Of a stretch of DNA of 64,000 nucleotides, positions 7,292 through 54,965 are shown piece by piece (position 1 is the stretch's first letter; each line of letters begins with the position of its first letter). Source of the DNA: Methanobacteriota archaeon (GTDB lineage Archaea; Thermoplasmatota; Thermoplasmata; RBG-16-68-12; JAJISG01). Below the pieces are notes generated by a model. The model was not told where the DNA came from. It saw only the letters and a program-made list of their open reading frames with translations, and searched no databases. The position numbers and the translations under genes are program-made. The stretch covers positions 41,538 through 105,537 of the forward strand of contig JAUVFR010000002.1 of the NCBI GenBank assembly GCA_030594205.1, given 5' to 3'.

Positions 7292-7377
7292 GCCGCGGTA
7301 ACTCAGTTGGGAGAGTGCCAGACTGAAGCCGTCTGGCAGACATCTGGAAGTCGCCGGTTCGAGCCCGGCCCGCGGCA
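7292..7377 (+). tRNA. tRNA-Phe(GAA) with a 13-nt intron (7329-7341) after position 37
   Basis: Acceptor GCCGCGG/CCGCGGC, T-arm GCCGG-TTCGAGC-CCGGC; removing ccgtctggcagac restores a 7-nt anticodon loop CTGAAGA on stem CCAGA/TCTGG. Confidence 0.93.
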
Positions 7378-7424: not shown

Positions 7425-7537
7425 CCCGCCTTAGCTCAGTTTGGCGAGAGCGGCTGACTGTAGTGGGTTCCCGGAGCGCGGGCTCCGGTTCGGCCGCTGA
7501 GATCAGCAGGTCCCCGGTTCAAATCCGGGAGGCGGGA
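7425..7537 (+). tRNA. tRNA-Tyr(GTA) with a 38-nt intron (7464-7501) after position 37
   Basis: Acceptor CCCGCCT/AGGCGGG, T-arm CCCGG-TTCAAAT-CCGGG; splicing gives stem GCTGA/TCAGC with loop CTGTAGA. Confidence 0.93.
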
Positions 7538-53292: not shown

Positions 53293-53459
53293 TGGGGGCA
53301 GAGGGATTTGAACCCCCGTCAGCGGGTTACGCCTACACAGACGGACAGGCTGTCCATCGGGTCATCGCTCCAGTTATTCATCACCGCTCAGCAAACCCGT
53401 TGCGACTCATTCCCTTGGTAACTGGAGCCCGCCAGGATCCCGGGCTACCCTATGCCCCC
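53293..53459 (-). tRNA. tRNA-Trp(CCA) with a 94-nt intron (53328-53421) after position 37
   Basis: Acceptor GGGGGCA/TGCCCCC, T-arm GGGGG-TTCAAAT-CCCTC; splicing gives stem GCGGG/CCCGC with loop CTCCAGA. Confidence 0.93.
53362..53410 (-). ncRNA. Box C/D guide sRNA inside the tRNA-Trp intron; C=ATGAGTC 53404-53410, D'=CTGA 53388-53391, C'=GTGATGA 53378-53384, D=ATGA 53362-53365
   Basis: Two 12-nt guide spacers and 3-nt D'-C' spacer; CCA..GGG/CCC..TGG flanking stem; guides complementary to the spliced anticodon arm. Confidence 0.85.
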
Positions 53460-53802: not shown

Positions 53803-54909
53803 ATGGTTCGCATCAAAGTCGTCTCGTTCGACCCCCAGCGGGCAACGGGAGAGGAATGGGCTCGGTTCCACGCGTACCGGCGAAAGCGGCACGTTGAAAC
53901 CGATCCCAATGACCCCCTGCGAGCGGACGCTACGGTGGAGGCGCAGCAGCGAAAGCCCGATATCGCCTGGAAGGAGCTTAACTTTCCCGTCATCGACATC
54001 GACGGGTCGGATGAGTGGATTGGCTGGCAGACGCTCGAGTTCGCCCGGTCCGACGGGCCCAGCTACGCGGAGAACAAGCGTATCCTATGGGTCTGGATCT
54101 CCCTCCTGCCTTCCTACCGCCGGCAGGGCATCGGTCGGCGACTCCTCCGAGAGGCCGCCAACTTTGCGCGAGAGCGCGGCAAGTCCCGGGTTGTGTCCTA
54201 CGCCGAAGAGGCGTCCGGTCTGGCCTTCTGGAAGGTGGTGGGCGCCCAGGATGCCCAGCGAGATCGTCAGAGTCGGTTGAATTTGGACGAGGTGGACTGG
54301 ACGATGGTGGAGCAATGGGCGGCCGAAGGTCCTGCGCGATCCCCAGACTCGAAACTCGTGTGGTTCACGAATCGCATCGACGACGAAGACATTGAGGAAT
54401 GGTGCGCGGCGTTCACGGAGGTCTGGAACATGATGCCCCGGGACGACCTGGACATCGGGGATGAGGTGTTCACCCCAGAGCGGCGGCGACAGTCCGAGGC
54501 GGGCATCGCCGAAGGGGGCGGGACCACCCTGACGGCGTTGACCCGAGAGGAAGACGGCACAATCTCGGGACTCACGGAGATGGGCTACTTCCCTGAGGAG
54601 GATTGGATGATCAACCAATGGATGACCGGGGTGCGGCGTCCGTACCGGGGGCGAGGACTCGGGAAATGGCTCAAGGCCGCCATGCTGCTGTGGGTTCGCG
54701 AGGAGTTCCCCCAGGTCCGTGTTGTCCGAACGGACAACGCCTTCTCCAACGCCCCGATGCTTTCCATCAACGAACGGCTCGGCTTCAAGCTATATCGAGA
54801 GGGAATGGAGGTCCAGATTGGGCTAGAGGATCTCGAGGCGTACCTCGCCAAGGTTCCCGAGAGTGAGGCGACCCTATTCGAAACGGAGGATGGACTCGCC
54901 GGGATTTGA
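53803..54909 (+). CDS. Tandem GNAT acetyltransferase (two domains)
   Basis: Two acetyl-CoA-binding motifs: LLPSYRRQGIGRRLL and GVRRPYRGRGLGKWLK. Confidence 0.88.
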   Translation: MVRIKVVSFDPQRATGEEWARFHAYRRKRHVETDPNDPLRADATVEAQQRKPDIAWKELNFPVIDIDGSDEWIGWQTLEFARSDGPSYAENKRILWVWISLLPSYRRQGIGRRLLREAANFARERGKSRVVSYAEEASGLAFWKVVGAQDAQRDRQSRLNLDEVDWTMVEQWAAEGPARSPDSKLVWFTNRIDDEDIEEWCAAFTEVWNMMPRDDLDIGDEVFTPERRRQSEAGIAEGGGTTLTALTREEDGTISGLTEMGYFPEEDWMINQWMTGVRRPYRGRGLGKWLKAAMLLWVREEFPQVRVVRTDNAFSNAPMLSINERLGFKLYREGMEVQIGLEDLEAYLAKVPESEATLFETEDGLAGI

Positions 54910-54965
54910 ACCCGGGATCGCCGGCTTAGAAGGCCGGTGCCCTCTCCAGGCTAGGCTACGAGTCC
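54891..54965 (-). tRNA. tRNA-Arg(TCT)
   Basis: Acceptor GGACTCG/CGAGTCC, anticodon arm CCGGC-CTTCTAA-GCCGG, T-arm CCGGG-TTCAAAT-CCCGG; upstream TATA CTTTATAACG. Confidence 0.95.

Follow-up and report, generated by a model that had tools for sequence, protein, structure and literature searches.

The tRNA-Trp intron of a Thermoplasmata archaeon as a very probable dual box C/D guide for nucleotides 34 and 39 of its own tRNA

The 94-nt intron of the tRNA-Trp(CCA) gene on the minus strand of the window, the 64,000-nt stretch of DNA analyzed here, is very probably a dual box C/D guide for C34 and C39 of its own tRNA, with C34 likely to be targeted before splicing. From the gene anatomy, the box and guide geometry, the conservation, the covariation and the machinery genes, all established here, we infer the RNP assembly, the methylations, their order, and the placing of guide and target in one molecule or two. 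L7Ae is expected to recognize both the C/D kink-turn and the C'/D' kink-loop and to be joined by Nop5 and fibrillarin; of the two guides, the one upstream of D would direct 2'-O-methylation of C34 and the one upstream of D' that of C39. Since the C34 guide is complementary to the junction of exon 1 and intron as it stands before splicing, C34 would most likely acquire its methyl group on the precursor, ahead of intron excision by the splicing endonuclease. The genome encodes fibrillarin (222.8 bits) and Nop5 (190.1 bits), as well as two proteins of the L7Ae family, which were not told apart, and a 382-aa protein in which the splicing-endonuclease domain occurs twice. With modest confidence we also lean towards a wider reading, in which both guides have evolved to read unspliced junctions, methylation preceding splicing, as the covariation of guides with introns in Thermoplasmatota and Halobacteriota suggests, and the kink-turn in Thermoplasmata has a U-A or C-G pair swapped in for G-C.

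The genome (1.54 Mb, 69 contigs, about 94% complete) has uncultured members of the class Thermoplasmata as its relatives, and the window lies on a 105.5-kb contig. The pre-tRNA-Trp(CCA) is 167 nt long (minus strand, 53459-53293), with a 38-nt exon 1, the 94-nt intron, and a 35-nt exon 2. Because of the long intron, the gene was not detected by plain ARAGORN or by Rfam at the gathering threshold. ARAGORN with introns allowed found the 94-nt intron, placed it two bases early and misnamed the tRNA Arg(CCT), and the exons joined without the intron are called as tRNA-Trp(CCA). An earlier note, made from the letters of the window, had described a complete dual box C/D guide here, and its strand, coordinates and intron length were correct. 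The features, all on the minus strand, are as follows.

53459-53422, minus: tRNA-Trp(CCA) exon 1, nt 1-37; anticodon CCA at 53425-53423, C34 at 53425
53427-53424, minus: putative splicing-motif central helix, 5' strand, C32-C35, facing 53333-53330; from column counts and the bulge-helix-bulge rule by inspection
53421-53328, minus: 94-nt intron at position 37/38 with the box C/D guide; counterpart in relatives
53414-53412, minus: stem I of the terminal kink-turn, 5' strand GGG; covariation in relatives
53410-53404, minus: box C, ATGAGTC; nt 6 is T, the partner of box D nt 1
53403-53392, minus: guide upstream of D', GCAACGGGTTTG, 12 nt; fifth nt opposite C39
53391-53388, minus: box D', CTGA, canonical
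53384-53378, minus: box C', GTGATGA, canonical, 3 nt after D'
53377-53366, minus: guide upstream of D, ATAACTGGAGCG, 12 nt; fifth nt opposite C34
53365-53362, minus: box D, ATGA; nt 1 is A
53361-53359, minus: stem I, 3' strand CCC; covariation in relatives
53355-53343, minus: short 3' hairpin GGACAGCCTGTCC, at the site of the relatives' conserved T(C/A)GCT-loop hairpin
53333-53330, minus: putative splicing-motif central helix, 3' strand GGCG; column counts in relatives
53327-53293, minus: tRNA-Trp exon 2, A38 to discriminator A; C39 at 53326

Along the intron, box C comes first, then D', C' and D, and each guide is 12 nt long; C' and D' are canonical, and C and D are variants with compensating changes. 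C34 lies opposite the fifth nucleotide upstream of D, and C39 opposite the fifth upstream of D', so that the N+5 geometry of the earlier reading is borne out. The C34 guide pairs with tRNA nt 31-37, as had been claimed, but does not stop there: it continues to intron +1 to +3, making 10 bp, and its duplex is stronger on the unspliced RNA (-17.4 kcal/mol) than on the spliced RNA (-14.0 kcal/mol). The nt-39 guide forms 8 bp with nt 35-42 of the spliced tRNA (-13.6 kcal/mol), as against 6 bp on the precursor, from intron -1 to nt 42 (-10.2 kcal/mol). It includes the one G-U pair reported earlier; the internal mismatch reported with it is absent within CAGACCCG, the first mismatch being A9-C43. 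The earlier reading had overlooked the fit of the guides to the exon-intron junctions of the unspliced RNA. The naked precursor RNA folds with the guide paired to the exon-intron junction.

How readily could such an arrangement arise by accident? With an identical criterion applied to the window intron and to 200,000 shuffles of it, a 10-bp C34 guide beside C and D boxes appeared in 3 shuffles, an 8-bp nt-39 guide in 16, and both in none. The alternative that this is a bulky tRNA intron whose box-like motifs and complementarity are chance or non-functional relics can point to box C, which fits the consensus at just 3 of its last 6 positions (TGA alone matches), and to one genome of family f15 (L196), whose boxes have decayed. 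Against it stand the shuffles, an intron guide that is conserved and covarying in two phyla, and the Watson-Crick kink-turn pair that ATGAGTC and ATGA keep, and we give it almost no credence.

The guide interpretation draws strong support from conservation, guide-target covariation, covariation of stem I and the kink-turn, and the machinery genes. Conservation of the guide spacers in close relatives, which the earlier note had named as a test, was found: of 61 near relatives, 46 were matched by BLAST, including 26 of the 27 good genomes, and the guides covary with their targets. A DNA pattern for a self-targeting C34 guide yielded 118 stretches of named genomes, nearly all from Thermoplasmata, with some from Methanocorpusculum and Geoglobus; the few bacterial records among the matches are chance hits or mislabelled bins. 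A covariance model built on 33 diverse members found matches in 133 of 150 Thermoplasmatota genera (296 of 395 genomes) and in 187 of 299 genomes from the phylum of a Geoglobus genome; most of family f15 has none. Some introns depart from the common form. L147 and L151 (family f12) carry an insertion of 67-70 nt between D' and C', and L201 and L203 (family f35) have a compensatory exon change: nt 37 of tRNA-Trp is A where others have G, and guide nt 8 has gone from C to U. Two model matches occur in each of the genomes G063 (L201 and L202) and G418 (L212 and L213); the two tRNA-Trp genes of G063 differ at nt 37, and the extra copies may be bin contamination.

Covariation between guides and targets was counted in 204 parsed introns out of 211 distinct ones, against shuffled expectations that ignore shared ancestry. 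Members obtained with the pattern were preselected for TGATGA, CTGGAG, and A or C at box D nt 1, and those obtained with the model are free of preselection; such preselection does not by itself create associations, but it partly accounts for all members having a C34 guide. Nucleotides 9, 10, and 11 of the D guide are Watson-Crick partners of intron +1, +2, and +3 in 204, 193, and 196 of the 204 introns, respectively (shuffled 116, 97, and 104), through A-T, G-C, C-G, and T-A pairs. At the next position, nt 12 against intron +4, there is no excess pairing (20/204, shuffled 53). The idea that the C34 guide also pairs with the spliced tRNA past nt 37 was rejected for these introns, since in none of the 204 is guide nt 9 complementary to spliced nt 38. 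Because the guide covaries with intron +1 to +3 and its nt 9 never pairs with spliced nt 38, the C34 guide has most likely evolved to read the unspliced exon 1-intron junction, its evolved target being the precursor.

The same pairing could instead be a cis fold of the precursor, an alternative to target recognition. In one such account the guide acts mainly on spliced tRNA, or in trans through the excised and possibly circular intron, and the match to the intron ends is a by-product of folding. Circular tRNA-Trp introns occur in many archaea (PMC12558985), work on H. volcanii favors action in trans (PMC2584109), and the D' guide of the window favors the spliced tRNA by the energies given above. 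On the other side is the covariation of the three extra nucleotides of the C34 guide with the intron start, the first of them never finding a partner in the spliced tRNA, and we regard this account as unlikely. The preferred reading, recognition of the precursor by the C34 guide, can be extended to the nt-39 guide with more reserve. Nucleotide 3 of the D' guide is Watson-Crick with intron -1 in 188 of 204 introns (shuffled 90). Nucleotide 2 pairs with intron -2 in 158 (shuffled 150), the window providing the one T-T exception, and nt 1 pairs with intron -3 in 7 and matches nt 35 of the spliced tRNA in 142. The associations of the C34 guide, of D' nt 3, and of the box pair persist after thinning to 63 and 22 clusters, that of D' nt 2 with intron -2 is not outstanding in the smaller thinned set, and a separate count on 33 sequences with slid controls had the same outcome. 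These counts suggest that the nt-39 guide reads the unspliced junction at the first intron base, following the same trend, although in the window it pairs better with the spliced tRNA.

Is nt 39 a true target at all? If C34 were the sole one, the D' guide would be residual or structural and nt 39 would receive little or no methylation. Among the marine Poseidoniales, some (L012, L049, L069, L107, L108, and L126) have lost the nt-39 guide and kept the C34 guide, and in some Methanomassiliicoccales the nt-39 guide is weakened, which makes Cm39 less certain than Cm34; L199, with the same intron start as those Poseidoniales, keeps both guides. The pairing at nt 39 in the unspliced window RNA is short, and in P. 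furiosus methylation of C39 was predicted and Cm39 was undetected in the tRNAs analyzed by mass spectrometry (PMC7668247). However, nt 5 of the D' guide and nt 39 are Watson-Crick partners in 198 of 204 introns, guide nt 3 changes in step with intron -1, and in the window the D' guide makes its 8 bp at exact N+5 spacing, so that a residual D' guide seems improbable to us and two targets remain the better reading. The earlier note had singled out a C at position 39; this is no peculiarity of the window gene, as C39 is present in 201 of the 204 introns and a review table already lists "Cm34 and Um39 (or Cm39)" (PMC6313347). A U39 facing A at guide nt 5 was sought among the relatives, and the sole U39 cases, three Poseidoniales introns, have no nt-39 guide.

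The C and D boxes of the window had been called degenerate, but they are more than that, their changes being compensated. In the standard kink-turn scheme nt 6 of box C pairs with nt 1 of box D, so the window boxes, with U-A at these positions, retain the kink-turn pair. This pair is Watson-Crick in 197 of 204 introns (shuffled mean 94), as U-A in 103, G-C in 85, C-G in 8, and A-U in 1. The C-G type is found in several families (L146 in f4; L147 and L151 in f12, with L208 and L209; L168, L172, and L173 in f23), which suggests repeated compensatory change. The corresponding pair of box C' nt 6 with box D' nt 1 is G-C in 203 of 204. The D box of the window, ATGA, is the commonest in the relatives (101/204), and each of the three pairs of stem I has changes on both sides among them, with 93% of cells paired. 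Judged by these counts, the unusual sequences of boxes C and D reflect compensation within the kink-turn pair, a feature common to most of the class Thermoplasmata.

The earlier note had stated that a self-targeting tRNA-Trp intron is known in other euryarchaea such as Haloferax, and the literature agrees. Introns guiding methylation of C34 and U39 are described from Haloferax, Pyrococcus, and others, in "at least 29 archaea" by 2008 (PMC2584109, PMC4090602, PMC7994747). The Haloferax volcanii guide of 103 nt goes back to Clouet d'Orval 2001 and Singh 2004, as cited in PMC2584109 and PMC4090602; the reviews PMC11408192, PMC4090602, and PMC7994747 describe the self-methylation mechanism of the intron as shown in vitro, and deletion of the intron abolishes both methylations without a growth defect (PMC11408192). 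Like that of H. volcanii, the window intron interrupts tRNA-Trp(CCA) and combines a C/D with a C'/D' guide, directed at C34 and nt 39; unlike it, the intron is 94 nt long instead of 103, and nt 39 is C instead of U. The U-A pair of box C nt 6 and box D nt 1 also differs from the canonical G-C, the Haloferax side of this comparison being the consensus and not its own boxes.

Against Rfam sR3 (RF01133), a family of sRNAs that carry this pair of guides, the intron scores 22.3 bits (E 8e-4), under the 41-bit gathering cut-off. The alignment spans the whole model (1-55 of 55), with the box order and the guides CGGGU.UG-CUGA and UGGAGC-.UGA in register, whereas boxes C and D differ and guide nt 9-11 are UAA in the window and CCG in sR3. 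The latter difference tracks the intron start, which is TTA in the window and CGG in Halobacteriota relatives. The window intron would work like sR3 without being counted among the members of that Rfam family. With sR40 (RF01297; 19.5 bits, E 0.09, cut-off 50) it shares the D' guide CGGGUUUG-CUGA and a UGGAG guide, and differs in the distance from D' to C'. The system has been known since 2001, and the window intron is a further clear example in another lineage. The compensated box pair and the junction covariation were not found in the open papers covered, in which the originals of 2001-2008 are represented through reviews, and no priority is claimed. The covariation of guides with intron ends indicates which state of the target is recognized, a point that in the sources covered had rested on in vitro work, and the compensated pair indicates that an intact kink-turn can underlie box C/D motifs called "degenerate". 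If so, guides with a swapped U-A or C-G pair can escape searches based on box consensus.

A splice motif can be drawn with two 3-nt bulges and a 4-nt central helix containing a U33-C mismatch; its 34:-5 pair is mismatched in most relatives. Scans with sigma-70 promoter and terminator models gave no matches, such models not being applicable to archaea. Most long Thermoplasmata introns (e.g. L129, L131, and L133) have, between box D and the 3' splice site, a hairpin with the conserved loop T(C/A)GCT, whose stem has 6 covarying pairs; the hairpin of the window at that place is unrelated. The tRNA-Trp gene is followed on its own strand, some 375 bases further downstream, by a gene for a CCA-adding enzyme (PF09249, PF21133; 51561-52916, minus), and a tRNA-Arg(UCU) is at 54891-54965 of the window. 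Elsewhere in the window, ARAGORN's tRNA-Leu(aag) at 7292-7377 (plus) is better read as a tRNA-Phe(GAA) with a 13-nt intron at 37/38, and a tRNA-Tyr(GUA) at 7425-7537 (plus), with an intron of about 39 nt, was found by Rfam and missed by ARAGORN.
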